Origin: Dillenia suffruticosa
Lineage: Eukaryota > Streptophyta > Magnoliopsida > Dilleniales > Dilleniaceae
DNA: 64,000 nucleotides
Direction of reading: 5' to 3'
Assembly (NCBI GenBank): GCA_033439265.1
Contig: JAVTVX010000019.1
Coordinates: 2,797,501-2,861,500 of the forward strand
The position numbers and the translations under genes are program-made. Below, piece after piece: positions 12,250-64,000 of the stretch. The notes under the pieces are model-generated. The model was not told where the DNA came from and did no database searches. It saw only the letters and a program-made list of their open reading frames with translations. Each line of letters starts with the position of its first letter. Within the stretch, counting starts at the first letter, position 1.

Positions 12250-12425
12250 CAACGCTTTATTGGTTTAGTAGGAATGACACTAACACCTCATATCAAGAAT
12301 CGGGGTTCGAGTTTTGATAGTGATAAAAATAGCGTTGGGAGAGCTCCCTCCCGATTTGGATCCGATAGTAACTCGATCGAGATTAATCGAAACAAAACTC
12401 TAGATATACGGCGGACAAAAAAAAA
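12250..12425 (+). mobile_element. tRNA-derived SINE, unit 1 only
   Basis: A 176-bp insertion with an A-rich tail, flanked by the direct repeat GAGAGAGAT (12,241-12,249 and 12,426-12,434). A box A-like string (TGGTTTAGTAGGAATGA) and a box B-like string (GGGTTCGAGTTTT) lie about 35-40 bases apart, as in an RNA polymerase III promoter. The 3' domain (ATTAATCGAAACAAAACTC..GATATACGG) is shared in outline with the SINEs at 13,296, 13,514 and 43,901. Unit 2 lacks it at the equivalent site near 23,822. The open frame covering it (12,148-12,465) is not a gene. Confidence 0.75.
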
Positions 12426-12434
12426 GAGAGAGAT

Positions 12435-13281: not shown

Positions 13282-13295
13282 TTGAATTAACTATA

Positions 13296-13472
13296 ACTTT
13301 TTTTTTTTTATCGATAGATATTTGGGTTTCCTCCTATTAATCTAATCTGAATACTGTAAAACTCATTAAGAGATTAGTTCTCTCAAATCATTTTTTTCTA
13401 TTCTCAGCATTCGAACTCGAGACTTTTGATTAAGGGATAGAATACCTGATCACTCCACCCGAAATAGTTTAG
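13296..13472 (-). mobile_element. SINE shared by all three units (unit 1 copy)
   Basis: A 177-bp insertion with its poly-A tail at the left end, so it lies on the minus strand. A perfect 14-bp target duplication TTGAATTAACTATA flanks it (13,282-13,295 and 13,473-13,486). Read on the minus strand it has box A-like and box B-like strings (GAGTTCGAATGCT) and the shared 3' domain. The same insertion sits at 60,878-61,050 in unit 3. In unit 2 it lies on either side of the old copia fossil. It is therefore older than the unit duplications. Confidence 0.8.
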
Positions 13473-13513
13473 TTGAATTAACTATATCTTTAACCATAAC
13501 AATGTTATCTATA

Positions 13514-13696
13514 TTGACTCAACTCCTTTAAATCGAGTGGTCGGACACTCTATTTTTTAACCAGAGATCTCGAGTTCGAGTTCTGAGAATGACGAAAAAA
13601 AATTGGGAGGGCCCATAGTGCTCAAGCCGATTTAGTCGAGCAAAACCCGGATACTGGTAATAAAAAAATAAAAATAAAAATAAAAGAAAAAAAGAA
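13514..13696 (+). mobile_element. SINE shared by units 1 and 3 but absent from unit 2 (unit 1 copy)
   Basis: A 183-bp insertion with box A-like (GAGTGGTCGGACACTC) and box B-like (CGAGTTCGAGTTCTG) strings, the ATTTAGTCGAG..AACCCGGATACTGG 3' domain and an AATAAAAATAAAA tail. Target duplications of 16 bp (AACAATGTTATCTATA and AACAATGTTGTCTATA) lie at 13,498-13,513 and 13,697-13,712. Unit 2 has a single intact copy of the target near 35,899, the empty site. Confidence 0.85.
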
Positions 13697-13712
13697 AACA
13701 ATGTTGTCTATA

Positions 13713-14194
13713 CTTTGCCTACCTGGGACGAGGCTGCAGTGCGAGGAATCCAAGAGAGCTAGATATATATATATATATGTATATATATTTTAACAAAGGA
13801 GGGTATTGTTTTAGGGGAGGGAGATAAAAGCTCGAACTGGTCTCAGGTCATAAGAGAAGTTTTTGGTACCACTAGATTTAAAGGCTCTTGGCGGGATCTA
13901 TGGGTTTGGGAGCAAATACTTCATATGTAGGGTTTGGATATTGCATACAACTTAGCAAGCACTTTATAGACAACATTGCAAGGGCCAACAGGCTTGAATT
14001 AATGAACAGACTGACATCGAAGACTTGGGAATTAAGGTTATGAGTGTGGTGCCCAAGATTGACAGCTTCTTGAACAAATAACAGCAGCCTAGGACCCAAA
14101 TGTGCCAGAACTTCTAAAAAAACACGGGGGATCAGCCATCTGGGCCTGATGCCGAAAACAGCCTTTCTAAGGCTCCTGATCCGTTATTCTTGGG
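13713..14194. other. Proximal upstream region of gene 1
   Basis: Host DNA aligning with 35,912-36,372 in unit 2 and 61,289-61,739 in unit 3. It contains a short TA run near 13,763-13,778 and a GC-richer stretch at 13,720-13,760. No gene was recognised; the short minus-strand open frame (13,878-14,099) is not kept in recognisable form in unit 2. Confidence 0.6.
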
Positions 14195-14520
14195 CTTGAA
14201 ACAAAGGGAAAATTGCCAGAATTGGGCCCACACATTGGTCCAAAATTTTTTTGGGCCCAAGCAATCAAAGTCCTTGACAGGTTGGTTTTGTTTTTTTATC
14301 TCGAGGCTTGAAACAAAGGGAAAATTGCAAGAATTAGGCCCACACATTGGTCCAAATTTTTTGGGCCCAAGCAATCAAAGTCATTGACAGGTTGGTTTTG
14401 TTTTTTTATCTCGAGGCTTGAAACAAAGGGAAAATTGCAAGAATTAGGCCCACACATTGGTCCAAATTTTTTGGGCCCAAGAAATCAAAGTCATTGACAG
14501 GATGGTTTTGGTTTTTAGCT
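14195..14520 (+). repeat. Promoter tandem repeat, three units of about 110 bp
   Basis: Three consecutive, nearly identical units start at 14,195, 14,307 and 14,417. Each begins 'cttgaaacaaagggaaaatt' and contains two GGCCCA/GGGCCC strings ('ggcccacacattgg' and 'tttgggcccaagc'), which resemble plant site II (TGGGCC) elements. Gene 3 has two units (61,740-61,955). Gene 2 has one unit, cut by a 1.6-kb insertion. The array ends about 250 bp before the start codon of gene 1, so its copy number could affect expression. That role is inference. Confidence 0.85.
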
Positions 14521-14766: not shown

Positions 14767-17700
14767 ATGAAAGAAATGCAAGGAAAATCGTTGATTGGGT
14801 GGCTTAATGTTCTAGGATTTCTTATTACTCTATTTGTTTCTTCCTTGAAATTTTTGACAGGTGTGGACGACAACATAGTACCAGGAACATTTCTCAGTTC
14901 AAACCAGACTATGGTTTCAGGAGGTGGGACTTTTGCCTTGGGCTTCTTCAGAACTGAAAATTCTACTAAAAGCTATCTAGGAGTATGGTATAACGATATT
15001 TCTCCAAAGACGGTGATTTGGGTTGCAAATAGAGAATCTCCTCTAGCACAAAACTCTTCAAACACGTTCTTAATAGGCAATGATGGGAATTTTCTTATCT
15101 GGGACAGCGCAAGAAATGCTATATGGTCATCAAATGTAGCGATTTCTAAGTCCACTTCAAAGAATGCCTCTGGGATTTTATTGGATACAGGAAATCTTGT
15201 CCTGAAAGTTGGTGAAGATATTTTGTGGCAGAGCTTTGATTATCCTTCGGACATGTTTGTGCCAGGCATGAAAATGAGCTTCAATCGCAGAACCCACAAA
15301 GAAATTAGTCTCACTTCGTGGTTAGATGAAGAAGATCCACAAACCGGGCTGTTCACTCTTGGTCTAGACCCTAGATGTGTTCTGCAGGCCTTAATCTGGA
15401 AGTCGTCTTTTCCATATGCTCGGTCAGATGTTTGGGATCCCACAGAAGTAGTAGTTAATAGCAGTGGACAGTATATTGCATATTTGAAAAGGGGCTTCAA
15501 TGATGATGAATTCTATGTTACCCTTGGTATCTCAGATAATTCGATTCATTTGAGGTATCAGTTACTCCCTAGTGGGAAATTGCAGCTTCTTGAATGGCGC
15601 AACATTGGGTGGGTTGTTTTGAGGGAATTACCTAAAGATGAATGCGACTACTATGCTCGTTGTGGACCATACGGTAGCTGTGTTTGGAGCAGCCCCTCTT
15701 TGTTATGCAAGTGTTTGACGGGCTTCAAGCCCAAAAATCAGCAAGAGTGGGACATAGGGAACTGGACTGAAGGTTGTGCATACCTAAAGGAGATAAAATG
15801 CAATGAAGATGGATTTTTGAGGCTGGGAGGAATGAAATTACCGGATAATTCTATCTGGTTGGGTAATTTGAATTCGAGTGCATGTAAAGTTGAATGCCTC
15901 AAGAACTGTTCCTGTAGTGCTTATGCTTTTGCCAATTTAAGCATAGGGAATTCAACGAGGTGTTTGCATTGGTATGGCGAATTGATTGATCTGGTGCAGA
16001 ACATTACACCAGGACAGAATATTTATATACGCCTTGATAGCTTAGAGTTGGGTATGATTCTTTCTCGTATCCAGGACCATTGTTTAATTCACAACCATGT
16101 GTTTGTTATTTGCAGGTTCTCCCATTGCTCCCTTTTGCCAAGCAAAGAAGAAACTAAAAAAAAAAAAATGGTCATGTCAATTGTTATGCCAACCGAAACT
16201 CATTATGTTATGAAAATTGATGTGGCCTTGTTGGATATTGCAGCTGGAACTGGAAAGTCTGGTAGCTTAAAGGACAAAAACAAACATCAGAAAGCAATTG
16301 TAGCCGCTGCTGTTTGCATGGGATTGCTCTTTCTTGGTGTAGCTGGTTACTACTTGTGGAGAAAAAGAGTAGAGCACAAAGGTTGAAATCCGCACATGCA
16401 CATATACACGACGATGCTATGATAAGCACGTCTGCACATGAGCATAATTATCGGTAGTGCATGTATCTGCTTCTTGTTCATACTTATTCTTGATATATTC
16501 ATGTTGAAAGCAGGACAATTGAAGGGAGATATGCCTTTCAAGACTTTTGAAGCAGATGAAATTGAAAATATTGATTCTGAGCTCTTTACCTTCAACCCCA
16601 GAAGTATATTAGCTGCTACAAACAACTTTTCGGAGGCAAATAAACTTGGAGAGGGTGGTTTCGGCCCTGTTTACAAGGTAGTAACTATCCCATGTTCCCC
16701 TGCACTTGGTCTTGCTGGACTCGCAACAGAACATTTTTCTGGTTTTTGCACTATTGTAGTTGTGTGCCTAAATAGATGATACTTTCTCTACTTTTTATTT
16801 TTCTGTAAGGGACAATTGCCTGGAAACCAAGAAGTAGCAATAAAGAAGCTTTCCAAGAAATCACTGCAAGGACTTGAAGAGTTCATGAATGAGTTAAAAC
16901 TAATTGCCAAGCTCCAACACAGGAATCTTGTTAGGCTTTTAGGCTGCTGTGTTCATGGGGAGGAAAGGATGTTGATTTACGAGTACATGCCCAATCTAAG
17001 CTTGGACAAATTTCTATTTGGTACAACGACAATCTCTCTCCAATTTGAACTGTTTTTGATTTTTCCTAGTGATAAAAGGAAAACTATTGCCATTTGAGTG
17101 TGTATATAACATTTCTGATAGCATCTGCTTCCAGATCCATTGAAACAGGCAAATCTTGATTGGCACAAACGCCTTCAGATCATTGAAGGTATTGCTCAAG
17201 GACTTCTCTATCTCCACAAGCACTCTAGATTGAAAGTTATTCACAGGGACCTAAAAGCCGGTAATGTTTTATTGGATGGAGCAATGAATCCTAAAATTTC
17301 TGATTTTGGGATGGCAAGGATTTTTGGAGTAAACCAAACTGAGGCAATTACAAACCGGGTCATGGGAACATAGTAAGTGCAAACAGAAGCACATGTTTTT
17401 AAGTTCATGAAAAATATCTTTGATTACGTTGGTATCATCTTCTGCATTTCTGAAATTGCATTTGCTCTCTCCTGATGCAGTGGCTACATGCCACCAGAAT
17501 ATGCTTTAAATGGACAGTTCTCTGAAAAATCAGATGTTTTTAGCTTTGGAGTTCTATTGTTAGAAATTGTGAGTGGTAAGAGGAGCATTGGTTTCTATAA
17601 TCATGAAGGCCCTCATACCCTTCCAGGATTGGTGAGTACCAAATAGCATTTCTTGTTAATTAACAAAAGCAATAAGCTAGAATTTAAAAATCTTCTAATG

Positions 17701-18045
17701 ATTCACACTAAAACCATACGTACTATGGACTGTGGATGGGTCCAGGCATGGGAATTGTGGAGCAATGATAGAGCTGCGGAGCTGATCGACCAATCAATAA
17801 GACAAACATGTGACCATCAAGAAGTGGTAAAGTGTGTTCATTTGGGACTTCTGTGTGTTCAAGAGTCTCCATTGGGACGCCCAACAATGTCTTCAGTAGT
17901 TCTCATGCTGGGACATGAGACCACACTGCTTCCATCGCCCAGAGAACCAGCCTTTTCTCGTATTTTCAAGGCCTATGATTCCTCTCCAGGACATGGTTCC
18001 TGTTCAAATAACGAGTTGACTATAAGCAGTATAAGTGCTCGATAG
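14767..18045 (+). CDS. Gene 1: G-type lectin S-receptor-like Ser/Thr kinase, apparently intact
   Basis: Seven exons inferred from GT-AG sites: 14,767-16,051, 16,244-16,381, 16,514-16,677, 16,810-17,020, 17,135-17,372, 17,481-17,631 and 17,746-18,045, giving 828 codons plus stop, the usual family length. Order: signal peptide (about 1-32), bulb-type lectin (35-150), S-locus glycoprotein domain (200-315), Cys-rich EGF-like part (300-345), PAN domain (350-425), membrane segment (446-467), kinase (510-790). The kinase has the glycine loop [10 protein letters not shown] (520-529), the VAIK lysine, HRDLKAGN (RD type, 636-643), DFG (656-658), a PPEYA motif and a C-terminal ISSISAR tail. The protein should sit in the plasma membrane and phosphorylate partners after sensing an unknown outside ligand. 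The ATG at 14,767 puts the signal peptide first; the open frame further upstream lacks an ATG. Ortholog identity is not claimed. Confidence 0.93.
16052..16243 (+). other. Intron 1 of gene 1, readable in frame
   Basis: 192 nt with GT at 16,052 and AG at 16,242-16,243. The length is a multiple of three and there is no stop in the reading frame, so an unspliced message would add 64 residues between the PAN domain and the membrane segment. It contains a run of about 13 A (16,157-16,168). The matching introns are 190 nt in gene 2 and 196 nt in gene 3, so neither keeps frame. Confidence 0.8.
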
Positions 18046-19500: not shown

Positions 19501-20690
19501 TAGCTAATATTTCAAACCGATGTAAATCCAATGATCACACAAAATACAAATTAAAGAAACATGCTCAAATTCTCAAAACTAAGTAAATAAACAAATGCTG
19601 GAAGTATCAAAAGATCTCTCGCCCAGGTCCCATCTAAACCTTAACCCCAGACCATTCCCCACAAAGTTGTGCTGCTACCCCGTTTTCCACTTGAGGAAAA
19701 ACTTAGACCCAGATCATTCCATGCTCTCAAGTCCAAGCTGCATCAGCAAAAGTTGTGTAGACCCAGTGAAAATTTCTAGCCCAATAACGTAGAAACAGCC
19801 CATTTGATTCAATCTTAGCATGTGCCACGTGACCCTCATCCACGTGAGTTCCCCACGCAAGCATCCTAACCACGATAGAAGGAACAGTTCAAAATCAACT
19901 TTTCCATATCTCACTCTCCCAAACAGCGCGTTTAATACTTTCCATCGATCGGAACGCGTGTGAGTGAGAACCACGCACCAAAATTTAACGTCGTATCGAA
20001 TAACGTAAACCAAGGTATTTAATATCCTTATTTATTTTATTGCTCGTTAGAAGATCAAAAGACGACTCCGGGTTATTCTACACCGAAACGCGTCCACGAA
20101 AGAGATTTATATTTATCAGTTGGAACCCACTTGAGAGAAATTATTTTTTATTTTGAAATTTTAGCTATTAGTTTTATATCATACAAAATAATACTATTTT
20201 TTGTCAGTGAGATTTATTTTTCTTTGCATATTGAAAAAATCTTTTTGTCAATTAAGAGATTCCCATGTTTTTGTTAATTTTGTGGATTAATTATGAAGAC
20301 TTATTTAAGGATTTTTGTCTTAACTAAGGACAATTTTATTGTCTCTGCAACTTTTTTATATTTTTTTAAAAAAATCTTTTTTGCAATTAAAAGATTCTCC
20401 TTTTTTTGTTAATTTTTTTTATGATTTTCAGGTTTTTTAAGATTTGTTCAAGGTTTAGTTTTTGTTCCTGATTCTATAATTTTTCAAAGATTTTAATTGT
20501 AGTTCAAATTCTAATTAAAAAAAAATCAAGAATTAGATTTAAAGAAGTGGCCCAGCATTCTGATTCCAAAGCTTCGATTCGCTTCTGATTCTTTTTATTA
20601 AGTTTTATTTCGATTGTCTTATAATTTGATAACAAAACCTTAAACATAGCTAGACTAAGGGGTCATACTCACTTTTCTCATTTTGCTTTA
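19501..20690. other. Unit 1 distal flank up to the unit 2 boundary
   Basis: Intergenic DNA aligning with 43,860-46,466. Two CACGTG strings lie at 19,826-19,831 and 19,841-19,846, matching the start of the G-box-rich module seen complete at 44,426-44,960; the rest of that module is missing here. Beyond 20,140 the sequence is AT-rich with repeated 'aaaaatctttt..caattaaaagatt' text. The unit 2 boundary is set at about 20,690, where the text of position 168 restarts. Confidence 0.6.
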
Positions 20691-22219
20691 ATAATGGATA
20701 ATATATTCTTTTACTACTATTTGATTTTATTAAAAAAATGTGTTTTTGAAGGAATGCCAACTTAAATTTCAGGCTGAAAAATATTTTTCTCATTAACATG
20801 TTAATCTTAAGAATATATTTTTTCTAATAAAAATTTGTAATTTTTACTATCAGTTGGCTTAACTTTTTATATATACAAGATAATAATTTTGTTAGTATTT
20901 ATATTATAAAAATTACAGATGAACAGGACTAAATCGAATTAAAGTTATATTTTAAAATAATTGATGCTACCTCCATAGATTATCCTTTCCCATCTCCATG
21001 TATAACCTTTTCCCATCAGGAATGATGCTTCCCAATGAAAAAGACAAATTGGGAACTTTTTTTGATCCCACAAGAAAGTTCTGGTGGCCTTAACATCAAA
21101 TTTCTCTTTTACTTCGCTCTCTTTCAAAATTTTTAACATTTTTTCTTCATAATTGATATCTGAGTTATTTGATTAATTTAATTTAAATATTATAAAACTC
21201 AATTTAAAAATAAATTCTCTTAATATCTTTTTTTTTTAATTTTAAAAAACTCGAATTTATAATTTTGATATTAAAATACTTCTTATATTAACCTAAATTA
21301 AGATTACACCATCTAATTAAAAAATAAAACAATAAAATATTTCATGTCTAAAATTTAATTCAAGTTGTTTCGTGAACACACCAAAATTAACTTTAGAAAT
21401 AGAAAATAAAACGATTATAAGTTTGAATTCTCACCTATAAGTGATAATAAAAAGTTTCGATATCATTCAGATCTGTGACATTGACAGGTAGCAAAGGAAA
21501 TCAAAATTTGCTTTGATGGCTAAGTTTATTTACATATTCATCAATCTAGTTTCCTATATCTTATATTTAAAATTTGTTAGGAATATCAAATAGACCAATT
21601 TACCCCTCCATACAATTTCTTGGTAGAGGGTGTTTGGGTGTTGAACAGCGAGCTCTAGTTCTAAATAAACATACACCTTAATTAGAAACTTTCTTTCAAG
21701 TCTGAAAACTGGAAAAGGAAAAAAAAAAAAAAAAAGACTAAATGGTAGGTTGTTCCACAACAATAACATCAGAATAAAATAATTTTCTTCTAGAAAATTA
21801 AGCAATGGAAATAGAAAAATTAGGCATCAACATAATTTTGTTATTTCCACATCTAATGGAAAAGTTAAAAGGTTTCTATTTTGGGTTATACGTGTATTAT
21901 TGACTAACACCACAGGCTAACCTTATGTAGAACCAGAAGATGAGATCATTAAACGGTTGGCATATAAGGTAAGCCTTTGTAAATTGTTGTCTAATATATA
22001 TTGTCTGGAACAAGTTAATACAGACCAATAAAACTAAGCGAAACCCGATCTAAAAATTAATTTAATAAATTAAGCCGAATTTTAAATGGGTCTGGTTTAA
22101 AAATGAGATTTAAAATTATATTTATTTTTTGAAATATATTATAATCATGTTAATTTTAATTAAAACTGATTCAAAATGAATTGATCTCTTAAAAATAAAA
22201 CTCTCTTAATACATGTTTA

Positions 22220-22271
<52 letters not shown>

Positions 22272-24677
22272 ACTCAAATATCATACTTATCATATAGTTA
22301 TATATATATATATAAGACTCAAATATCATACTTATCAGTTTTATTTTATTTAAGTTAAACAGGATAGAGCCAAAGAAGTGATGTGAGCCGTAGCGTGAGA
22401 ACAAAGAAATTTTTTTTGGTTCTTATGAGAACAAAGAAATTGGTGTGTCTCCTACGCGGATAGGGAACACCCCCAAGAATCTACCGACCAAACTAATATC
22501 GCAGCGGGACAATAAGGCTTACATACGCCAACCTTACTACCTTTATATTGGACAATTAAGATATAATTATTTTAAATATTGAGACCCAAAAGATTTTTGT
22601 TTTTGAGATTAGATTAGATTAGATTAAATTAAAACTAGATAAGTAGAATATAATTTTAATTTTTGTACGAAGAGATTTGATTTTTTTTACTAAATTTTAT
22701 ATTCTTTCAAAAGATTTTATTTTAATTAAAATTATTATAAGTAAAATAGAAAATAGATTAAGAGAAATTAAGTCAAGTTCAGAAGATGAACTATCCATAA
22801 CTAATTTGGATAAAAAAAAGAGTCTATGCCCGTCCGTGATTTATTGTACGACGGCTTATTTTTCACACCACAAGTGATGTGTGCTTTCCTTAAGGCATTA
22901 TATAAAGATATGGACAATTTGGGGGTGGTGACCGATCTTTTTTATTATTTTTTAAGATTAGTATTTAAAATTATATTTTGAGTAATAATGATTTAAATAT
23001 TTATGAGAATTTTATTTAAGAAACGACTCTTATAGAATTAATTTTTTTATTTTTAAATTTTAAATTCAAAACTTAACTGGTCACCGGATCTTCAATTCTA
23101 CATGGTCGACTCTCTGTTAATGCTTGACCAATCTTAAAGCCACCTGCAAATCTAATTGAATGAACTGAGATTTCGCCCCAAAATTCTTTGGTAGACTAAG
23201 CACTCTCAGGGCCTACAATTCAGCTAGTAACGAGGAAGTCCAAGCCTAATAAATACCGAAACCTAAAAACTATTTGCCACTATGATCTCAGTTGACTCCA
23301 ACTGCTCTTGACTCCACCTGCACAAGCCGACCCACGGTTTCGAAGGATGGCCCATCTATACCGATTCCAATACCCGGTTGATCCAAAGATTATATATTTA
23401 TCTCTCTTAAATAAGTTTTTTAATTCAAATTTTTTATATAATAAAAATAAACGTAAAAGAAGTTCTATTCTTTTGAAAGTTTAACCCAAATCAAAACATA
23501 TTTAATTGAATCTTTAAATATTAATGATTTATTAAACAAAAATTATGGTCCATCGGTGTTAAAGGCGTTGTAACCCAATGGAGTTTTAAGAAAATATCAA
23601 AGATTTTAAAAAAATTATTAAAATCCTTTAAAATATATTTTATTTCCTAAAAATTAAAAGCTCCACTTCTTAAACCCAATATATTTTACTGTATTTCTGA
23701 CTTTCTCTGACTACAGTCTCATGTAATTAAATTTTGAATTTAAAATTTGACATTTATAAAGTTGGGCAACCACGGTGTGATCAACAGGGAAAGAGCTTTT
23801 TGCAAGTTGGTCAAAATTAAACAGGCAAGAGAGGATAAATCCTAACCCATCGCACATCCAAAATTGTGGTCCAGTGAAAGCATATAAAAGAAGACTCAAA
23901 AGTTCTCCACCAATTTTTGTCAAACGTTGGTTTTTCCTCTGACCAAATGAATTACCACAAACTCATCCTAAAACTAAAAATAAGAAAAAATGTAGCCAAT
24001 TGCGCATAATAAACCTTTGTAAAGCTTGAATGTCTATGGTCAATATTGAATTAGCTCATTAACTTTGAACGAAAACAAATTGGTCCACAGGCCTCATTAG
24101 GCTGTTTGAAGGTAAAAAATCAACCTTTAATTTTTATGGCACTGATTAACCATCCATCGACCGATTATATTAGAAAATATTATATATTAAAATTAAATCA
24201 ATTATTAAAAAATATTATATATTAAAATAAATAAATAATTAATTTGATTTTAAAAATTATTAATTTTATTCATTTACATATTATAAGAATGAGTGTTTTT
24301 TAGTATAAAATCATTGTATTATAGTATTTTATTAAAATAATAAATCATTATGATTTTATATTATTGTTATTGTTTCTGATTTTTAGCGATCAAAACAAAA
24401 CAAAGAACCGATAAGTTCATTGGGCATTTAAACGGAGAGGGGATTGCCCTGATGAAGCCCTCACGAAGGAAAGAAAATATCAATCGTTGAACCATTCCAA
24501 AGAATGGATGTAACTCACGGAGCTGACACGAAACCTAATTCAGCTAACTTATCTGGGCGGGAAACCTAACTCTTGTACGGAACTGACAACTAACAAATCC
24601 CTTTGCACACTTTCATAGGCCTTTTCCGGATCCACTTTGATGGTCGTTGAACCACTTTTCCATTTTTGCTTTCCCAT
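20690..24677. repeat. Unit 2 left host segment
   Basis: Aligns with 168-1,740 and then 5,944-7,257 plus 12,435-13,281 of unit 1, and with 46,467 onward in unit 3. Unlike units 1 and 3 it has no large insertion near 22,890, where the text runs straight through ('cttaaggcattatataaagatatgg'). It also has a single empty copia target near 23,776. It is thus the cleanest version of the ancestral segment. A TA microsatellite lies at 22,223-22,268. No gene was seen. Confidence 0.75.
22223..22268. repeat. TA microsatellite
   Basis: An AT/TA dinucleotide run, with a short second run near 22,300-22,312 inside a repeated 'aagactcaaatatcatacttatca' block. Confidence 0.9.
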
Positions 24678-24690
24678 TCAATTAATTATA

Positions 24691-24752
24691 ACTTTTTTAT
24701 TATCATTTAAATTTTATTTAATTAATTTGTTTTAAATATTATAAAATTTATT
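24691..24752 (-). mobile_element. SINE shared by all units (unit 2 copy, left piece)
   Basis: Its A-tail side and worn body follow a TCAATTAATTATA version of the target duplication (24,678-24,690). The body is then interrupted by the old copia fossil and resumes at 35,762. This proves that the copia element landed inside the SINE. Confidence 0.6.
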
Positions 24753-25371
24753 TATTAAATTATTAATCTAACATTAAACTTATATATTAAAATAATTATA
24801 TATTACATATTATCAAGTCCATAAGAGAAACCCATATAAAATGATCTGATAAATTTAAAAAACTTAATAATTTACATTTAAATATCTTAAAGAATATGAA
24901 AATAAATAAATATATAAATACTAATAGACACTTGCTATTTATAATAGGTTAACTAAGGAATATCTGAAGGTGACTTAAAAATAGTATGAAAGTTCCTTAA
25001 ATTCATATGAATTAAATAAGATAACTTGAATAAACTAAATAAACAAATTCCATTTATAAATTTGGAAGTAAAGTCACATCCTACAACTATAAATAAGGGT
25101 TATGAACTCATATTATTACTCTTCTCCCTAATACTCCTATTATATAGAAATATTTTGTGAGAATACATTTGACCTGGAAAGCCGTGATCGGGATTCTGCC
25201 TAGACGAAGGTAGAATCAAGTTTTTATTCTATTTAGTTTCCGACTATGGAGTCAGGTATAATTTCGATCCATTCTAAGTTTTAATTTTTGTTTATTAAGT
25301 TTTTTTTTTAATTCCAATGATTTAACACGATTTTGATATAGTTTTGCGTTATATAATTTTTTTTTCCAACA
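24753..25371 (+). repeat. Left LTR of the old copia fossil
   Basis: 619 bp aligning with the right LTR at 35,115-35,761 along its whole length, including the 'tataaataa' promoter-like text near 25,090 and the block 'gggattctgcctagacgaag' near 25,191. It ends CCAACA, two bases before the primer-binding site. Confidence 0.85.
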
Positions 25372-35114: not shown

Positions 35115-35761
35115 TGTTGGATCATTAATCCAATATTGGACTTATATGTTAAAATAATTATGTATTGCATACTGTCAAGCTCATAAGATAAGCCCATATG
35201 AAAATGATCTGATAAATTTGAAAAATTCAGTAATTTTGGTTTGAATATCTCAAAGGATATAAAAATAAATAAATATGTAGTTACCAATAGATACTTGTTA
35301 TTTATGATGGGTTAAATAGATAATGTTTGAAAGTGACTTAAGAATAGTATGAAAGTGACTTAAAAATAGTATGAAAGTTACCTAAATTCATATGAATTAG
35401 GTAAGGTAACTTGAATAAGTTAAATATACAAATTCCATTTATGAATTTGGAAGTAAAGTCACCCCCTACAACTATAAATAAGAGTTATGGTCTATGGGTC
35501 ATATTATTACTCTTCTCTCTAATACTCCCATCATACAGAGAAATTTTGTGATAATACATTTGACTTGGAAGGCCATGGCCGGGATTCTGCCCAAACGAAG
35601 GTCGAATCAAGTTTTTATTCTATTCAGTTTCCGACTATGGAATCAGGTATAATTTCGATCCGTTCTAAGTTTTAATTTCAGTTTATTAAGTTTTTTTTTT
35701 AATTCCAATGATTTAACACTATTTTGATATGATTTTGCATTAAGTAATTTTTTTTCTAACA
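35115..35761 (+). repeat. Right LTR of the old copia fossil
   Basis: 647 bp starting TGTTGGATC and ending CTAACA, preceded by a short purine stretch (TTAGGAGAT). It contains a small internal duplication ('gtatgaaagtgacttaa') near 35,335-35,370 not present in the left LTR. Confidence 0.87.
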
Positions 35762-35871: not shown

Positions 35872-36431
35872 TTGAATTAACCATTTCTTGAACCATCACA
35901 ATGTTGTCTCTACTTTGTCTACCCGGGACGAGGCTGCAATGCGAGGAATCTGAGAGAGAGAATGTTTTTTTTTTTTTTTAAGCAAAGGAGGGTCTTGTTT
36001 TAGGGGAGGGAGATAAAAGCTCGAACAGGTCTCAGGTCATAAGAGAAGTTTTTGGTACCACTAGATTTAAAGGCTCTTGGGGGGATCTATGGGTTTGGGA
36101 ACAAATACTTCATATGATTGCATACAACTTTAACAAGCACTTTATAGACAACATTGCAAAGGCCAGTAGGCTTGAATTGGTGAACAACTGACATCGAAGA
36201 CTTCAGAATTAAGGTTATGAGTGTCTTGCCCAAGATTGTGAACTTCTTGAACAAATAACAACAGCCTAGGACCCAAATATGCCAGAACTTCTAAAATTTA
36301 GAAAACAGCCTTTCTAACTTCTTTTAGACATGCCAGTGGAGATGAGAAGGCTCCTGATCCGCTATTCTTGGGCTTGAAACAAAGGGAAAATTGCAAGAAT
36401 TATGCCCACACATTGGTCCAAATTTTTTGGG
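35872..36431. other. Upstream flank of gene 2 with an empty SINE site
   Basis: Aligns with 13,473-14,255 of unit 1 minus the second SINE. The target 'cacaatgttgtctctac' occurs once, near 35,898. One copy of the 110-bp promoter repeat starts at 36,373 and is interrupted at about 36,432. Confidence 0.7.
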
Positions 36432-38348: not shown

Positions 38349-41300
38349 ATGGAAGAGATGCAAGGAAAATCGTTGATTGGGTGGCTCAATGTTCTAGGAT
38401 TTCTTATTACTTTCTTTGTTTCTTCTTTGAAAATTTTGACAGGTGTGGACGACAACATAATACCAGGAACATTTCTCAGTTCAAACCAGACTATGGTTTC
38501 AGCAGGTGGGACTTTTGCCTTGGGCGTCTTCAGTCCTGAAAATTCTACTAAAAGCTATCTAGGAATATGGTATAACGATATTGCTCAAAAGACGGTGATT
38601 TGGGTTGCAAATAGAGAATCTCCTCTAGCACAAAACTCTTCAAACACTTTCTTAATAGGCAATGGCGGGAATTTTCTTATCTGGGACAGCGGAAGAAATG
38701 CTATATGGTCATCAAATGTATCGATTTCTAACTCCACATCAAAGAATACCTCTGGGATTTTAATGGATACAGGAAATCTTGTCCTGAAACTTGGTGAAGA
38801 TATTTTGTGGCAGAGCTTTGATTATCCTTCGGACATGATTGTGCCAGGCATGAAAATAAGCTTAAATCACAGAACCCACAAAGAAATTAGTCTCACTTCG
38901 TGGTTAGATGAAGAAGATCCACAAACCGGGCTGTTCACTTATGGTATAGACCCTAGAGGTGTTCTGCAGGCCTTAATCTGGAAGTCATCTTTTCCATATT
39001 ATCGGACAGATGTTTGGGATGGCGGTCCCACAGATGTAGCACTTAATAGCAGTGGAAAGTATTTAGCATATATCACAAAGGGCTTCAATGATGATGAAAT
39101 CTATTTTACCCTTAGTATCTCAGATAATTCGATTCATTTGAGGTCTCAGTTACTCCCTAGTGGGAAAATACAGCTTCTTGAATGGCGTAACACTGGGTGG
39201 GTTGTTTTGGCGGCAGCACCTGAAGATGAATGCGATTACTATGCTCGTTGTGGACCATACGGTAGCTGTGTTTGGAGCAGCTCCTCTTTGTTATGCAAGT
39301 GTTTGACGGGCTTCAAGCCCAAAAATCAGCAAGAGTGGGACACAGGGAACTGGACTGAAGGTTGTGCATACCAAAAGGAGATAAAATGCAATGAAGATGG
39401 ATTTTTGAGGCTGGGAGGAATGAAATTACCGGATAATTCTATCTGGTTGGGTAATTTGAATTTGAGTGCATGTTAAGTTGAATGCCTCAAGAACTGTTCA
39501 TGTAGTGCTTATGCTTATGCCAATTTAAGCATAGGGAATTCAACAAGGTGTTTGCATTGGTATGGCGAATTGATTGATCTTGTGCAGAACAAGACACCAG
39601 GACAGGATATTCATATACGCCTTGATAGCTCAGAGTTGGGTATGATTCTTTCTCGTATCCAGACCATTGTTTAATGCACAACAATGTGTTTATTATTTGC
39701 AGGTTGCCCCATTCGTCCCTTTTGCCAAGCAAAGAAGAAATTAAAAAAAAAAAAAAAAAAGTCATGTCAGTTGTAATGCCAAATGAAACTCATTATTTAT
39801 GAACATTGATATGGCCTTGTATAATGCAGTTGGAACTGGAAATTCTGGTAGCTTAAAGGACAAAAACAAACGTCAGAAAGCAATTGTGGCTGCTGCTGTT
39901 TGCATGGGATTGCTCTTTCTTGGTGTAGCTGGTTACTACTTGTGGAGAAAAGGAGTGGAGCACCAAGGTTGAAATCCGCACATACACATATGCACGATGA
40001 TACTACAATATGCGTGCCAGCACTTGAGCATAATTATTGATAGTGCATGTATCTTCTTCTTGTTCATACTTATTCTGGATATATTTATGTTGAAAGCAGG
40101 ACAATTGAATGGAGATATGCCTTTTAGGACTTTTGAAGCCGATGAAATTGAAAATATTGATTCTGAGCTCTTTACCTTTACCCCGAGAAGTATATTAGCT
40201 GCTACAAACAACTTTTCGGAGGCAAATAAACTTGGAGAGGGTGGTTTCGGCCCTGTTTACAAGGTAGTAACTATTCCATGTTCCCTTGCACTTGGTCTTG
40301 CTGGACTCGCAACAGAACATTTTTCTATTTTTTGCACTACGGTACTTTTGTGCTTAAATAGATGATACTTTCTCTACTTTTTATTTTTCTGTAAGGGACT
40401 ATTGCCCGGAAACCAAGAAGTAGCAATAAAGAGGCTTTCCAAGAAATCACAGCAAGGACTTGAAGAGTTCATGAATGAGTTAAAACTAATTGCCAAGCTC
40501 CAACACAGGAATCTTGTTAGGCTTTTAGGCTGCTGTGTTCATGGGGAGGAAAGGATGTTGATTTATGAGTACATGCCCAATCAAAGCTTGGACAAATTTC
40601 TATTCGGTACAACTACAATCTCTCTCCAATTTGAAGTTTTTGATTTTTCCTTGTGATAAAAGATAAACTATTGCAATTTGAGTGTGTATATAACATTTCT
40701 GACAGCATCTGCTTCCAGATCCATTGAAACAGGCAAATCTTGATTGGCACAAACGCCTTCAGATCATTGAAGGTATTGCTCAAGGACTTCTTTATCTCCA
40801 CAAGTACTCTAGATTGAAAGTTATTCACAGGGACCTAAAAGCCGGTAATGTTTTATTGGATGGAGCAATGAATCCTAAAATTTCTGATTTTGGGATGGCA
40901 AGGATTTTTGGAGTAAACCAAACTGAGGCAATTACAACCCGGGCAAACAAAAGCGCTTGTTTTTAAGTTCATGAAAAATATCTTTGATCACGTTGGTATC
41001 ATCTACTGCATTCTGTATCCATTTTTATTTCTGAAATTGCATTTGCTCTCTCCCGATGCAGTGGCTACATGCCACCAGAATATGCTTTAAATGGACAGTT
41101 CTCTGAAAAATCAGATGTTTTTAGCTTTGGAGTTCTATTGTTAGAGATTGTGAGTGGTAAGAGGAGCACTGGTTTCCATCAACATGAAGGCCCTCATACC
41201 CTTCTAGGATTGGTGAGTACCAAATAAGATTTCTTGTTAATTAACAAAAGCCATAAACTAGAATCTAAAAATCTTCTAATGATTCACACTAAAACCATCC

Positions 41301-41626
41301 GTATTATGGATTGTGGATGGGTCCAGGCATGGGAATTCTGGAGCAGTGATAGAGCTGCGGAGCTGATTGACACATCAATAAGACAAACATGTGACCTTCA
41401 AGAAGTGGTAAAGTGTGTTCATTTGGGACTTCTGTGTGTTCAAGAGTCTCCATTGGGACGCCCAACAATGTCTTCAGTTGTTCTCATGCTGGGAAATGAG
41501 ACCACTTTGCTTCCATCGCCCAGAGAACCAGCCTTTTCTCGTATTTTCAAGGCCTATGAGTCCTCTCCAGGACTTGGTTCCTGTTCAAATAATGAGTTGA
41601 CTATGAGCAGTATAAGTGCTCGATAG
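38349..41626 (+). pseudogene. Gene 2: G-type lectin S-receptor-like kinase pseudogene
   Basis: Same seven-exon layout as gene 1: 38,349-39,639, 39,830-39,967, 40,100-40,263, 40,396-40,606, 40,719 to about 40,943, 41,062-41,212 and 41,327-41,626. The start MEEMQGK, signal peptide, lectin, S-locus and PAN regions, membrane segment, glycine loop, VAIK, HRDLK and DFG are recognisable. Two lesions break it. Codon 376 is TAA (39,474-39,476) where genes 1 and 3 have AAA, in the PAN domain. In exon 5, about 20 bases after 40,943 are missing relative to gene 1, removing the VMGTY codons and the splice donor. A message could at best give a secreted lectin/S-locus fragment of 375 residues. Exons are otherwise very similar to gene 1, so the loss is recent. 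Confidence 0.9.
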
Positions 41627-44100: not shown

Positions 44101-46466
44101 ACAAATTAAAGAAACATGCTCAATTCTCAAAACTAAGTAAATAAACAAATGCTGGGAGTATTAAAAGATCTCTCGCCCAGGTCCCACCTAAACCTTAACA
44201 CCAGATCATTCCCTACAAAGTTGTGCTGCTACCCCGTTTTCCACTTGAGGTAACACTTAGACCCAGATCATTCCATGTTCTTGAGTCCAAGCTGCATCAA
44301 CAAAAGTTGTGTAGACCCAGTGAAACATTCTAGCCCAATAACGTCGAAACGGGCCATGTGATTCAAACTCACATTTTTAAGAACCAGCCCAGCCCGAGCC
44401 CGAGCCCATAAATCTCAGCGTGTGCCACGTGACCCGCATCCACGTTAGTTCGCCACGCAAGCATTCCAACCACAATTGAAGGAACAATTCAAAATCAACT
44501 TTTCCATATCTCAATCTCCCAAACAGCGCGTTTAATTCTTGCCATCGCTGGAATGCGTATGATTGAGAACCACGCACCAAAATTTAACGTCGTGTTGAAC
44601 AACGTAAACCAAGGTATTTAATATCCGTATTTATTTTATTGCTCGTTAGAAGATCAAAAGACGACTTCGAATTACACCGAAACGCGTCCACGAAAGAGAT
44701 TTATATATATCAGTTGGGACCCACTGGGCATGCCACGTCATTAGAGACACGCAGGTGCCGTTCACGTGGACCATCCAGGCCCACGTGGAAGCGAATCAGA
44801 ATCTTCCAGCACGGAGAATTGTGAACCCACGTGGACTAAATATAACCCGCAGAAAATCAAAAATCAAAATATCATAGCACGAACCAAGGGAACCAAAGTA
44901 CCCGGTTCACCCTGTTCCCTTTCTAGCCGACACCTGTCATCTCCTCGCGAAACCCTAGCCCGAAACCGAATTTCCCATTTTACCCCTTAACCTCTTTCAT
45001 GATACGTTAAATTTACTTAAACACCTCATATTTTACCGACAATTATACATAATCTTGTATTATAATTTTAGTTGTAATTTTAAAAATCTTTTGTTTTTAC
45101 CTATAAAAATTCTTAGAGTATCGAACGGACCAATTGAATCAATGATGAAAATAGATCAAAATCTATATAAGCGATAAAAATTACTAAAAAATATTTAATA
45201 AAAATATAGTAATATAGTCTATTATGTAAAATTAATTTAATCAGTGCAGATTTAAAAATTTCAAGTGCACTGAAAGTCTTATAGATATTATTAAAATTCT
45301 CCAAAATGTGGCAATATCTTCGAAATGTTTTTTATATTTAAAAAATTATAATATATGCCTCTTCCGGGGCTCCCTACATGCATCTCTTAATAAAAGTTTA
45401 TGATTTTGCCCCCTACAAATAACATATTCAAATTTCAGCTATTAATGTTACATCATACAAAATAATACTATTTTTTGTCAGTGAGATTTATTTTTCTTTG
45501 CATATAGAAAAAATCTTTTTTTCAATTAAAAGATTCCCATGTTTTTGTCAATTTTGTGGAATAAATTATGAAGACATATTTAAGGATTTTTGTCTTAATT
45601 AAAAGCAATTTTATTGTCTTTGCAACTTGTTTATATTTTTTAAAAAAATCTTTTTCACAATTAAAAGATTATCCTTTTTTCATTAATTATTTTTAATGAT
45701 GTGGGAGAAATTACAAACTATTTTTAAAACAGTTAAACACGTTAAAATAATTAATATTTATTATATATTTTTATATTTAATTATATATTTTTATTTTAAT
45801 TATTTTATAATTAATTATTATACATTTTATTATTATAAATTTTTATTATAAAAAATAATTATTTTTTATTTTTATAAAATAATTAATATTTATATAAAAA
45901 TTCTTATTTTTTATATTTTTATGTTTTTCCATTTTTATTTCATGTATTCTTACAAAAGTGTTTTTTTTATTATCATCTCATATCCATTTTTATTTTTCTA
46001 TTTTCGTTTTTACACAACCTAAATTTACTTTGCTATACTCCAACTATTTACTCTCTCTCTCTCTCTCTCTCTCTCTCGTTCAGTTGAGTCTTTCTTAACA
46101 ATGGACTCAATAGGCATGCCTTTGCTCGAGATTTCCAATCGAATTAGATAATTTTTCATTTTGTAAAATAAAAAACAAAATTAGTTTCGATATTATGATA
46201 ATTTCAATGTTAATTTTAAAATTGAAGGGGTTCTTATTCTAAAATGATTATAATTCAGTTCCATGTTCATTTTATTCGAATTCTCATTTAAAAAAAAAAA
46301 CCATCAAGAATTAGAATTAAAGGAGTGGCCCAACATTTTGATTCAAAAGTTTCGATTTACTTCTTATTCTTTTTATTAAGTTTTATTTCGATTGTCTTAT
46401 AATTTGATAACAAAACCTTAAACATAGCTAGACTGAGGTTTCATTCTCACTTTTCTCATTTTGCTT
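44101..46466. other. Unit 2 distal flank with a promoter-like module
   Basis: Aligns with 19,531-20,690, plus about 680 bases (about 44,735-45,420) missing from unit 1 and a further AT-rich part (45,700-46,300) that matches the first bases of the window. It contains the G-box module and a CT microsatellite (46,050-46,078). No gene was seen downstream of the module. Confidence 0.6.
44426..44960 (+). promoter_or_regulatory. G-box-rich promoter-like module without a gene
   Basis: Perfect CACGTG palindromes at 44,426, 44,763, 44,782 and 44,828, three of them within 71 bases and in CACGTGG context. A TATA-like string (CTAAATATAAC, about 44,836) lies just after the last one, and a telo-box-like AAACCCTAG (44,950-44,958) follows about 110 bases on. 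This looks like a core promoter and 5' leader of an ordinary plant gene facing right, but only AT-rich intergenic DNA follows. It may be a promoter left behind at a duplication breakpoint. Confidence 0.45.
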
Positions 46467-48083
46467 TAATAATGGATAATATATTCTTTTACTACTATTT
46501 GATTTTATTAAAAAATGTGTTTTTGAAAGAATGCCAACTTAAATATCAGGCTGAAAAATATTTTTCTCATTAACATGTTAATCTTAAAAATATATATATT
46601 TTTTTAATAAAAATTTGTAATTTTTACGGTCTATTCACTTACCTTTTTATATATACAAGATAATAATTTTGTTAGTATTTAAATTATAAAAATTACAGAT
46701 GAACAAGACTAAATCGAATTAAAGTTTAGTATTGAACCAAAATTTCTTTTTATACGTAATATTTTAAAATGATTGATGCTACCTCCATAGATAATCCTTT
46801 CCCATGTCCATAGATAACCTTTTCCCATCAGGAATGATGCTTCCCAATGAAAAAGACAAATTGGGAACTTTCTTTGATACCATGAGAAAGTTCTGGTGGC
46901 CTTAACATCAAATTTCTCTTCTACTTCGCTCTCTTTCAAAGTTTTTAACCTTTTTTTTCTTCATAATTGATATATAAATTATCCGATTAATTCAGTTCAA
47001 ACATTATGAGACTCAATTTAAAAATAAGTTATCTCAACATCTGTTTTTTTTATTTTAAAAACTCGAATTTAAAATTTTAATACTAAAATGCTTATTATAT
47101 TAGACCCAATTAAGGTTATACCATCCAATTAAAAATTAAAATAATAAAATAGTTCATGTCTAAAATTTAATTCTAGTTGTTTTGTCAACACACCAAAATT
47201 AACTTTTGTATCAGAAAATAAAACGATTATAAGTTTTAATTCTCACCGATGAGTGATAATAAAAAATTTTGATATCATTAAGATCAGCGACATTGACAGG
47301 TAGTAAACAAAAATCAAAATTTACTTTCAAGGCTAAGTTTATTTACATATTCATCAATCTAGTTTCCTATATTTTATATTTAAAATTTATTAGGAATATC
47401 ACATAGACCAATTTACCCCTCCATACAATTTCTTGGTAGGGGATGTTTGGGTGTTGAACAGCGAGCTCTAGGTCTAAACAAACATTACACCTTAATTAGA
47501 AACTTTCTTTCAAGTCCCAAAACTGGAAAAGGAAAAAATAAAAAAAAAAAAAGACTAAATGGTAGGTTGTTCCACAACAATAACGCTAGAATAAAATAAT
47601 TTTCTTCTAAAAAATTAAGCAATGGAAAAGTTAAAAGGTTTCTATTTTGGGCTACATGTGTATTATTGACTAACACCACAGGCTAACTTTATGTAGAACC
47701 AGAAGATGAGATCATTAAACGCTTGGCATATAAGGTAAGCCTTTGCAAATTGGTTTGAAATAAGATTTAAAATTATATTTATTTTTTGAAATAAGTCATC
47801 ACAATCTAGGAATTATGTTAATTCTGATTAAATTCGAATCGAATCGAATTGACCTCTTAAAATACAAAACTCTTTCGATATCTATTTACTCATATATAAG
47901 ACTCGAATCCGATGCTTATTTAATAGGTATCAATTTTATTTTATTTAAGTTAAATAGGATAGAGCAAAAGAAGAGAGAGAGGCTGTGTGAGCCGCAGTGT
48001 GAGAAAGAGGAAATTGGTGTCTCGTACACGGGTAGGGAACACCCCAGGAATCTACCGACCAAACTAATATGGCAGCTGCACAA
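46467..48083. repeat. Unit 3 left host segment
   Basis: Aligns with 168-1,785 and 20,690-22,510. Intergenic and AT-rich, with no gene. It ends at the hAT insertion, inside the text 'ggcagctgcacaa|taaggcttac'. Confidence 0.75.
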
Positions 48084-59260: not shown

Positions 59261-60863
59261 ACTTAGCACTCTCTCATGGCCTACAATTCAGCTTGTAAGG
59301 AGGAAGCGAAGCCAAATAAATGCCGAATAACAACTATTTGCCACTGTGATATCAGTTGACTCCACCTGCACAAGCCGACCCTCGGTTTCGAAGGATGGCA
59401 CATCTATAACAATACCTATGTCGATTAAATATTAATATCTCTTAAATAAGTTTTTAAATTTAAATTTTATGTATAATAAAATTAAATATTAAAAGAGTTC
59501 TATCATTTTGAAAGTTCAATCTAGTTTGAAACGTATTTAATTGAATCTAATAAGTTATCGATGATTTATTTTTTAAAAAAATAGCCCATCTGTGTTCAAG
59601 GTGCTCTGGCCCAAAGGAGTTCTAAGAAAATATTGAAGATTTTTAAAAGTATTATTAAAATTCTTTAAAATGTATTTTATTTCCTAAAAATTAAAACCTT
59701 CACTTCTTATACCCAATATATTTCACTTCATCCCTGGGTATAAATTTTTGACTTTCTCTTACCAAAGCCACACAGAATCAAAGTCAAACAAGCTTATTAT
59801 TAATATGATGCGATTTATCCTCTTTGAGAGAGGATAAATCCTAACCTAGAGAGGTGTAGGCTTTTCTGGCGTTGTGTGTATAGAACGTTTCTCGTTAAAA
59901 AATTTATCCTGTAAAAAAAGTCACGGTAACGATCTTAGGGCAAAACCCTAAATATCAAATAGTATCTAAAACACAGTAAAAAAAACAAAAGAGAGAAAGA
60001 GAGAGAGAGAAAGGGTTGTAGGCCTTTCAGAGAGGATAAATCCTAACCCATCTCACATCCCAAATTGGGGTCCATGTAAAAGCATATAAAAGAAGACTCA
60101 ACAGTTCTCCACCAAATTTTGTCAAACGCAGGTTTTTCCTCTAACCGAATGAATTGCCACAAACTCATCCTAAAACTAAAATTGAAAAAAATGTTTGCAA
60201 TTGCGCATAATAAACCTTTGTAAAGTTTGAATGTCTATGGTCAATATTGAATTAGTTCATTGACTTAGAACAAAAACAAATTGGTCCACAGGCATCATCA
60301 GGCGGTTTGAAGGTAAAAAATCAACCTTCAACACTGATTAGCCGCCCATCGACCATGTTAAAAAATATTATATATTAAAATCAAATCAAGTATTAAAAAA
60401 TATTATATATTAAAATAAATAAATGACCAATTTGATTTTCAAAATTTTTAACTTTATTCACTTACATATTATAACAATGAGTTTTTTTTAATATAAAATT
60501 AACATATTATAATATATTATTAAAACAATGAATTATTAGAATTTTAAATTATTGTCATTGCTTCTCATTTTTAGCGATCAAAACAAAACAAAGAACCCAT
60601 AGGTTGGATGGGCATTTAAACGAGAGGGGATTGCCCTGATGAAGCCCTCATGAAGGAAAGAAAATATCAATCCTAGAACCATTCCAAAGAATGGATGTAA
60701 GTCACGGTGCTGACACGAAACCTAATTAAGCTAACTTTTTTGGGTGGGAAACCAAACTCTTGTATGGAGCTGACAACTAACAAAACCCTTTGCACACTTC
60801 CATAGGGCTTTTCCAGACCCACTTTGATCATCGTTGACTCTTTTTTCCATTTTTCCTTTCTCA
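59261..60863. repeat. Unit 3 host segment
   Basis: Aligns with 6,685-7,250 and 12,435-13,281. Near 59,780-60,020 it has about 240 bases that differ from units 1 and 2, including two 'gagaggataaatcctaacc' copies and a GA tract (59,990-60,012). No gene was seen. Confidence 0.65.
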
Positions 60864-60877
60864 TTTAATTAACTATA

Positions 60878-61050
60878 ACTTTTTTTTTATGGATACATTT
60901 GTGTTTCCTCTTATTAATCTAATCTGAACACTTTAAAACTCATTAAGAAATTAACTCTCTCAAATTATTTTTTTCTATTCTCAGTATTCAAACTTGAAAT
61001 TTTTGATTAAGGTGATAGAATACTCGATCACTCTCTCCAAAAGAATTTGA
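60878..61050 (-). mobile_element. SINE shared by all units (unit 3 copy)
   Basis: Same insertion as 13,296-13,472, with the target copies TTTAATTAACTATA (60,864-60,877) and TTGAATTAACTATA (61,051-61,064). Confidence 0.78.
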
Positions 61051-61088
61051 TTGAATTAACTATATCTTGAACCATAATATTGTCTATA

Positions 61089-61272
61089 TTTAACTCAACT
61101 CTTTTAAATTGAGTGGTTGGACACTCTACCCTCTTAATCAGAAATCTCAAATTCGAGTTCTGGGAATGATGAAAAAGGATTTGGGAGGACTCATAGTATT
61201 CGAACCGAATTAATCGAGTAAAATCCGGATACCGGTGGTAACAAAATAAAAATAAAAATAAAAGAAAAAGAA
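61089..61272 (+). mobile_element. SINE shared with unit 1, absent from unit 2 (unit 3 copy)
   Basis: Same insertion as 13,514-13,696: box A-like GAGTGGTTGGACACTC, box B-like CAAATTCGAGTTCTG, 3' domain and AATAAAAATAAAA tail. The right target copy AACAATGTTGTCTATA is at 61,273-61,288. The left copy is slightly worn. Confidence 0.82.
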
Positions 61273-61288
61273 AACAATGTTGTCTATA

Positions 61289-61739
61289 CTCTGCCTACCC
61301 GGGACGAGGCTGCAGTGCGAGGAATCCAAGAGAGCTTGATATATATATATGTATATATTTTTTAACAAAGGAGGGTATTGTTTTAGGGGAGGGAGATAAA
61401 AGCTCGAACTGGTCTCAGTTTGGTACCACTAGATTTAAAGGCTCTTGGCGAGATCTGTGGGTTTGGGTGCAAATACTTCATATGATTGCATACAACTTTA
61501 GCAAACACTTTATAGACAACATTGCAAAGGCCAACAGGCTTGAATTGATGAACAGACTGACATCGAAGACATAGGAATTAAGGTTATGAGTGTGGTGCCC
61601 AAGATTGACAGCTTCTTGAACAAATAACAGCAGCCTAAGACCCAAATATGCCAGAACTTCTAAAAAACACGGGGGAACAGCCATCTGGGCCTGATGCCGA
61701 GAACAGCCTTTCTAAGGCTCCTGATCAGTTATTCTTGGG
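61289..61739. other. Upstream region of gene 3
   Basis: Aligns with 13,713-14,194 with small indels. A short TA run lies near 61,339-61,350. No gene was recognised. Confidence 0.6.
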
Positions 61740-61955
61740 CTTGAAACAAAGGGAAAATTGCAAGAATTCGGCCACACATTGGTCCAAATTTTTTGGGCCC
61801 AAGCATTCAAAGTCATTGACAGGTTGGTTTTGTTTTTTAGCTCGAGGCTTGAAACGAAGGGAAAATTGCTAGAATTAGGCCCACACATTGGTCCAAATTT
61901 TTTGGGCCCAAGCAATCAAAGTCATTGACAGGATGGTTTTGTTTTTTAGCTTGAG
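61740..61955 (+). repeat. Promoter tandem repeat of gene 3, two units
   Basis: Units start at 61,740 and 61,848 and match the three-unit array of gene 1, with the same GGCCCA and GGGCCC strings. Confidence 0.83.
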
Positions 61956-62201: not shown

Positions 62202-64000
62202 ATGCAAGGAAAATCGTTGATTGGGTGGCTTAATGTTCTAGGATTTCTTATTTCTCTATTTGTTTCTTCCTTGAAATATTTGACATGTGTGGACAACAAC
62301 ATAGTACCAGGAACATTTCTCAGTTCAAACCAGACTATAGTTTCAGCAGGTGGGACTTTTGCCTTGGGCTTCTTCGGTCCTGAAAATTCTACTAAAAGCT
62401 ATCTAGGAATATGGTATAACGATATTGCTCAAAAGACGGTGATTTGGGTTGCAAATAGACAATCTCCTTTAGCACAAAACTCTTCAAACACTTTCTTAAT
62501 AGGCAATGATGGGAATTTTCTTATCTGGGACAGCGCAAGAAATGCTATATGGTCATCAAATGTATCGCTTTCTAACTCCACTTCAAAGAATAGCTCTGGG
62601 ATTTTAATGGATACAGGAAATCTTGTCCTGAAACTTGGTGAAGGTATTTTGTGGCAGAGCTTTGATTATCCTTCGGACATGTTTGTGCCGGGCATGAAAA
62701 TAAGCTTAAATCACAGAACCCACAAAGAAATTAGTCTCACTTCGTGGTTAGATGAAGAAGATCCACAAACGGGGCTGTTTACTTATGGTATAGACCCTAG
62801 AGGTGTTCTGCAGTCCTTAATCAGGAAGTCGTCTTTTCCATATCTTCGGACAGATGTTTGGGATGGTAGTCCCACATATGTAGCACTTAATAGCAGTGGA
62901 AAGTATTTTGCATATATCACAATGGGCATCAATGATGATGAAACCTATTTTACCCTTAGTATCTCAGATAACTCTATTCATTTGAGGTATCAGTTACTCC
63001 CTAGTGGGAAATTGCAGCTTCTTGAATGGCGCAACACTGGGTGGGTTGTTTTGGCGGCAGCACCTGAAGATAAATGCGATTACTATGCTCGTTGTGGACC
63101 ATACGGTAGCTGTGTTTGGAGCAGCCCCTCTTTGTTATGCAAGTGTTTGACGGGCTTCAAGCCCAAAAATCAGCAAGAGTGGGACACAGGGAACTGGACT
63201 GAAGGTTGTGCATACCTAAAGGAGATAAAATGCAATGAAGATGGATTTTTGAGGCTGGGAGGAATGAAATTACCGGATAATTCTATCTGGTTGGGTAATT
63301 TGAATTCGAGTGCATGTAAAGTTGAATGCCTCGTGAACTGTTCATGTAGTGCTTATGCTTTTGCCAATTTAAGCATAGGGAATTCAACAAGGTGTTTGCA
63401 TTGGTATGGCGAATTGATTGATCTGGTGCAGAACATTACACCAGGACAGGATATTTATATACGCCTTGATAGCTTAGAGTTGGGTATGATTCTTTCTCGT
63501 ATCCAGGACCATTGTTTAATTCACAACCATGCGTTTGTTATTTGCAGGTTCTCCCATTCCTCCCTTTTGCCAAGCAAAGAAGAAATTAAAAAAAAAAAAA
63601 AAAAGGGTCATGTCAATTGTTATGCCAACCGAAACTCATTATGTTATGAAAATTGATGTGGCCTTGTTGGATATTGCAGTTGGAACTGGAAAGTCTGGTA
63701 GCTTAAAGGACGAAAACAAACATCAGAAAGCAATTGTAGCCGCTGCTGTTTGCATGGGATTGCTCTTTCTTGGTGTAGCTGGTTACTACTTGTGGAGAAA
63801 AAGAGTAGAGCACAAAGGTTGAAATCCGCACATGCACATATACACGACGATGCTATGATATGCACGTCAGCACTTGAGCATAATTATCAGTAGTGCATGT
63901 ATCTTCTTCTTGTTCATACTTATTCTTGATATATTCATGTTGAAAGCAGGACAATTGAAGGGAGATATGCCTTTCAGGACTTTTGAAGCAGATGAAATTG
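62202..64000 (+). CDS. Gene 3: G-type lectin S-receptor-like Ser/Thr kinase, cut by the window end
   Basis: Exon 1 is 62,202-63,483, exon 2 63,680-63,817, and exon 3 starts at 63,950 and continues past the window. Signal peptide, bulb lectin, S-locus, Cys-rich, PAN and membrane parts are all present and the frame is open. The start codon used by gene 1 is ATC here, so translation should begin at the next ATG, three codons downstream, giving MQGKSLIGW; the signal peptide is kept. The kinase domain lies outside, so function cannot be judged. Intron 1 (196 nt) has a longer A run than in gene 1 and does not keep frame. Lectin and S-locus parts look like gene 2, while the N terminus, PAN and membrane parts look like gene 1. 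Confidence 0.88.

Follow-up and report, generated by a model that had tools for sequence, protein, structure and literature searches.

S-domain receptor kinase genes in tandem

G-type lectin S-domain receptor-like kinases (SD-RLKs) are defined by an ectodomain in which B_lectin, S_locus_glycop and PAN domains are joined. Genes made of seven exons are usual in the family, as are tandem clusters that include dead copies. The S-locus receptor kinase (SRK), the self-incompatibility determinant, is distinguished by allelic polymorphism and by linkage to a gene encoding the pollen ligand.

The window, i.e. the whole 64-kb stretch of DNA analysed here, represents one haplotype and, judging by its genes, appears to be of plant origin. 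It carries, in tandem, three genes for S-domain (G-type lectin) receptor kinases. The third gene continues past the right edge of the window. Coordinates of the genes, and of the segments discussed below, are as follows.

14767..18045, + strand: gene 1, intact 7-exon receptor kinase; exon boundaries set by eye
14767-16051, 16244-16381, 16514-16677, 16810-17020, 17135-17372, 17481-17631, 17746-18045, + strand: gene 1 exons
14920..15648, + strand: gene 1 block with replacement excess; lacks 6 bp present in genes 2 and 3
38349..41626, + strand: gene 2, pseudogene
60004..61947, + strand: gene 3 upstream flank, 90.5% like 12425-14406 of gene 1, less like the gene 2 pieces 23828-24698 and 35898-36431
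62202..63483, + strand: gene 3 exon 1; signal peptide (by eye) and B_lectin, S_locus_glycop, PAN_2 ectodomain; open frame
62346..63080, + strand: gene 3 central block, codons 49-293; replacement states match gene 2
63680..63817, + strand: gene 3 exon 2, identified by its similarity to exon 2 of gene 1; transmembrane (by eye)
about 63950 to beyond the window, + strand: gene 3 exon 3

Gene 1 splices to an unbroken translation of 828 aa, each of its 6 introns being delimited by GT and AG, and features B_lectin, S_locus_glycop, PAN_2 and kinase domains in Pfam (kinase PF07714, 2.9e-52). Exon 1 of gene 3 matches B_lectin (7.8e-30), S_locus_glycop (4e-19) and PAN_2 (8e-17), and its splice donor, read from the sequence, is GTATGA. 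The ectodomain typical of G-type lectin SD-RLKs is accordingly complete in genes 1 and 3, and gene 1 has in addition the transmembrane segment (hydrophobicity of exon 2 judged by eye) and the Ser/Thr kinase; the kinase part of gene 3 falls past the window edge. Two lesions mark gene 2 as a pseudogene: a stop codon at 39474-39476 interrupts exon 1, and the final 14 bases of exon 5 are missing together with the splice donor (near 40942). A PAN_2 match is absent from gene 2 upstream of the stop.

The flanks identify genes 1 and 3 as sister copies. In two far-upstream stretches the columns in which gene 1, gene 2 or gene 3 alone differs are 21:62:22 of 853 and 7:59:8 of 512, respectively, adding up to 28:121:30 of 1365. 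Genes 1 and 2 differ at 5% of exon 1 synonymous sites (pS 0.05), and at 10% of sites just upstream. The region immediately upstream of gene 1 (14184-14516) hosts a tandem duplication, the units of which are about 112 bp apart and 95% alike. Approximately 9.7 kb of DNA inserted upstream of gene 2 are bracketed by a pair of direct repeats (24759-25371 and 35121-35761; 83.5% alike), a pair that suggests the LTRs of an ancient retrotransposon. Positions 166-1423 match 20687-21986, downstream of gene 1, and partly also 46465-47439, downstream of gene 2, so the array may extend leftward, past the window edge, by one or more further copies.

Replacement and silent differences in exon 1

The sequence-only reading described exon 1 of gene 3 as a mosaic, similar to gene 1 at both ends and to gene 2 in the lectin/S-locus part, and attributed this either to gene conversion or to fast change of gene 1. 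The patchiness is borne out, and the motifs quoted in its favour are all found where expected in a protein alignment of the three genes. LFVSS, NIVPG, VWSSPS and CAYLKEI are common to genes 1 and 3, as is the stretch [16 protein letters not shown]; the corresponding gene 2 DNA, located downstream of the gene 2 stop, has H and S at codons 419 and 425. Genes 2 and 3 have in common [45 protein letters not shown] and VLAAAPED. When whole units are aligned, the gene that stands apart is mostly gene 2 in the flanks and at the exon 1 ends, and mostly gene 1 in the segment corresponding to about 62346-63080.

Differences confined to one gene were sorted into replacement and synonymous sites, leaving out triallelic sites and the single 6-bp gene 1 gap. 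The gene-1-only, gene-2-only and gene-3-only replacement sites are 37:7:11 in the block and 2:11:7 in the rest of exon 1; the synonymous sites are 2:5:6 and 2:5:0, respectively. The clustering of gene-1-only versus gene-2-only sites was assessed by permutation (20,000 each). Clustering is marked when all sites of the 2100-column alignment are considered (P=5e-5, the floor of the test, none of the 20,000 permutations being as clustered), and is found in exon 1 both with all sites (P=0.0017) and with replacement sites (P=0.001). No clustering was detected among non-coding plus synonymous sites (P=0.74, or 0.72 if exons 2-3 are added), nor among exon 1 synonymous sites taken alone (P=0.17), which are just 4 versus 10. 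What makes gene 3 look like a mosaic is its replacement sites rather than its silent ones. While the pattern stands, its description as a gene 3 mosaic is probably wrong: the odd one out is probably gene 1. A mosaic seen at the protein level can mimic gene conversion, and silent sites alone distinguish the two.

Silent sites in the block have peculiarities of their own. All the private synonymous changes of gene 3 in exon 1, six in number, fall within 62346-63080. The 13 silent differences of the block fit the tree drawn from the flanks poorly, as gene-3-only sites are in excess (6/13, P=0.01) and gene-2-only sites too few (5/13, P=0.04). The log-likelihood of the block is -1356.2 with a conversion tract between genes 1 and 2, -1355.7 with a star tree and -1358.4 with the flank tree, values which all rest on 13 synonymous changes. 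Either small-number noise or an exchange involving some unsampled copy might underlie the misfit.

Probable accelerated change of the gene 1 ectodomain

In the block, gene-1-only differences are 37 replacement to 2 silent, versus 18 to 11 for genes 2 and 3 pooled (Fisher P=0.001); over the whole exon 1 the figures are 39:4 and 36:16 (P=0.012). A custom-written three-branch codon maximum-likelihood model, from which 4 of 427 codons were dropped because of gaps or the gene 2 stop, estimates dN/dS on the gene 1 branch as 5.7 within the block (p=0.004, tested against 1) and as 2.9 over the whole exon 1 (p=0.026). Multi-base changes are described as a known source of false positives in PMC10336034. 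When double hits are allowed, the estimates become 4.9 (p=0.012) and 2.3 (p=0.086), respectively. The neutral length of the gene 1 branch is similar in the block (0.013), at the exon 1 ends (0.016) and far upstream (28/1365 columns), and the gene-1-only share of the silent differences of the block (2/13) does not differ from that of the flanks (P=1.0). A comparison of genes 1 and 2 gives pN/pS ratios of 1.19 for exon 1 and 0.46 for the kinase exons (Fisher p=0.036). Gene 1 is not the sole odd branch, as at the exon 1 ends gene 3 has 7 replacement and 0 silent changes (p=0.036 in a model with gene 3 free).

The changes in gene 1 show some clumping: 17 of the gaps between them do not exceed 6 bp, versus 10.7 expected (P=0.007); at cut-offs of 1, 3 and 10 bp the P values are 0.14, 0.09 and 0.14. 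If replacement changes found within 3, 6 or 10 bp of each other are merged, 28, 20 or 18 events are left to be set against the 2 silent ones, and P becomes 0.03, 0.13 or 0.17. The limits of the block, moreover, were drawn after the pattern had been seen. Support for fast change of gene 1 is moderate because of the post hoc block, the clumping, the paucity of silent sites in the block (13) and the lack of a near outgroup. Positive selection on the gene 1 branch is thus moderately, not firmly, indicated, and it is the flank tree that gives the direction of change. Of the two options offered by the sequence-only reading, fast change of gene 1 is the one favoured, by a dN/dS estimate above 1 on its branch.

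On balance, it is rather probable that the ectodomain block of gene 1 changed fast, likely under diversifying selection, after the split from gene 3. Most of the 37 replacement differences of the block would have arisen in gene 1 once it had separated from gene 3, which would account for 28 codons uniquely different and for codons at which all three genes differ. Gene 1 would also have undergone a 2-residue deletion in the lectin/S-locus-glycoprotein block, with almost no silent change. The older residues would for the most part have persisted in genes 2 and 3. The ligand-facing half of the protein was likely under diversifying selection, plausibly linked to a change of recognition, and the cysteine-rich/PAN part and the kinase of gene 1 would have been held more constant. 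Multi-base mutations, or micro-conversions from unsampled paralogs, possibly contributed.

That micro-conversion alone could explain the data seems rather unlikely. According to this hypothesis, gene 1 (or gene 3) took short patches from unsampled paralogs of the array, and clusters of replacements arrived together. Clumps such as the five changes found in 8 bases at gene 3 63054-63061 fit this notion, as do the excess of private silent changes of gene 3 in the block and the possible extension of the array to the left. However, a donor under ordinary constraint would carry silent differences too, and the gene 1 block has 2; furthermore, three words specific to gene 1 were found in gene 1 only when both strands of the window were searched. 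In a more doubtful scheme the two processes are combined: short patches, array-templated or multi-base, would have rewritten the ligand-facing half of gene 1 and selection would have kept them, the array serving as a store of cassettes for new specificities beside the dead gene 2.

Relaxed constraint, with gene 1 drifting free of selection, is improbable. For exon 1 as a whole, the fit allowing double hits is compatible with a dN/dS of 1, as noted above, but gene 1 is intact, its kinase is conserved, and the estimates for the block exceed 1.

Least probable of all is that gene conversion shifted the lectin/S-locus block between genes 2 and 3, although replacement states and the 6-bp indel both put gene 2 with gene 3 in the block. 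Silent sites of the block do not join the two genes, since 11 silent differences between them persist in about 155 synonymous sites (0.212, from the codon model, x 735 bases), and the signal sits in replacement sites, as the Fisher comparison above indicates. With flank rates and number of synonymous sites worked out by hand, conversion predicts 12.9, 9.6 or 6.4 gene-1-only silent differences at 100, 75 or 50% of the flank rate, against the 2 seen (P=0.0002, 0.004 and 0.045, respectively). The half-rate case is not remote, given the pS of 0.05 between genes 1 and 2 in exon 1 versus the 0.10 difference just upstream. In codon models with branch lengths set by hand from flank counts, conversion between genes 2 and 3 is 3.6 units worse than the flank tree (lnL -1362.0 versus -1358.4). 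A conversion tract should be supported by silent and replacement sites alike; here, clustering is found in exon 1 replacement sites (P=0.001), not in non-coding plus synonymous sites (P=0.74) or in exon 1 synonymous sites alone (P=0.17). By these sequence comparisons, conversion between genes 2 and 3 is unsupported and is not the likely explanation.

Comparison with Brassica SRK and other S-domain receptors

Gene 1 alone differs in amino acid at 30 codons ranging from 49 to 417, 28 of which lie within 49-289; all three genes differ at 8 additional codons. The ectodomain is homologous over most of its length to those of Brassica SRK8 (PDB 6kyw, E 2.8e-74) and SRK9 (PDB 5gyy, E 3.8e-70). The changed codons 286 and 289 of gene 1 align with Ser293 and Asn296 of SRK8, two residues contacting the ligand according to PMC7530648. 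Thirteen SRK positions were hand-picked as contacts from the same source, which mentions one of them (273) as mutated and not explicitly as a contact. Nothing seen in the window points to self-incompatibility. Relative to these 13 positions, gene 1 differs from Brassica SRK in that its changes are not significantly enriched near SP11-contact residues: 6 of 37 mapped changed codons fall within 2 residues of a contact, versus 3.6 expected (P=0.14), and 5 of 34 if the block only is considered (P=0.30).

SRK8 and SRK9 were also used as outgroups, excluding the 11 positions that, according to PMC7530648, are engineered in 6kyw. The gene 1 state is closer to SRK8 at 8 of 27 positions and to SRK9 at 9 of 29, the gene 2/3 state at 14 and 13, respectively, and the rest are ties; total identities are nearly equal among the genes. 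The two Brassica proteins are too distant for the changes to be polarised. A search for relatives in collections of viral, bacterial and archaeal contigs found none, a result of little weight given the nature of those collections.

Gene 1 is the copy in the window most likely altered in what it binds, and is therefore the one to test for recognition. In a survey of potato tandem duplicates, the S-locus glycoprotein domain is listed among those enriched in neo-functionalised pairs (PMC9131075). Fast replacement in the ectodomain of tandem S-domain receptor kinase copies is to be expected, and is fairly ordinary for recognition receptors. The array described here features the same B_lectin, S_locus_glycop, PAN_2 and kinase domains as tandem SD-RLK clusters, with 7 exons in gene 1, and no architectural difference from SD-RLKs has been seen; what is unusual is the confinement of replacement change to one block of one copy.
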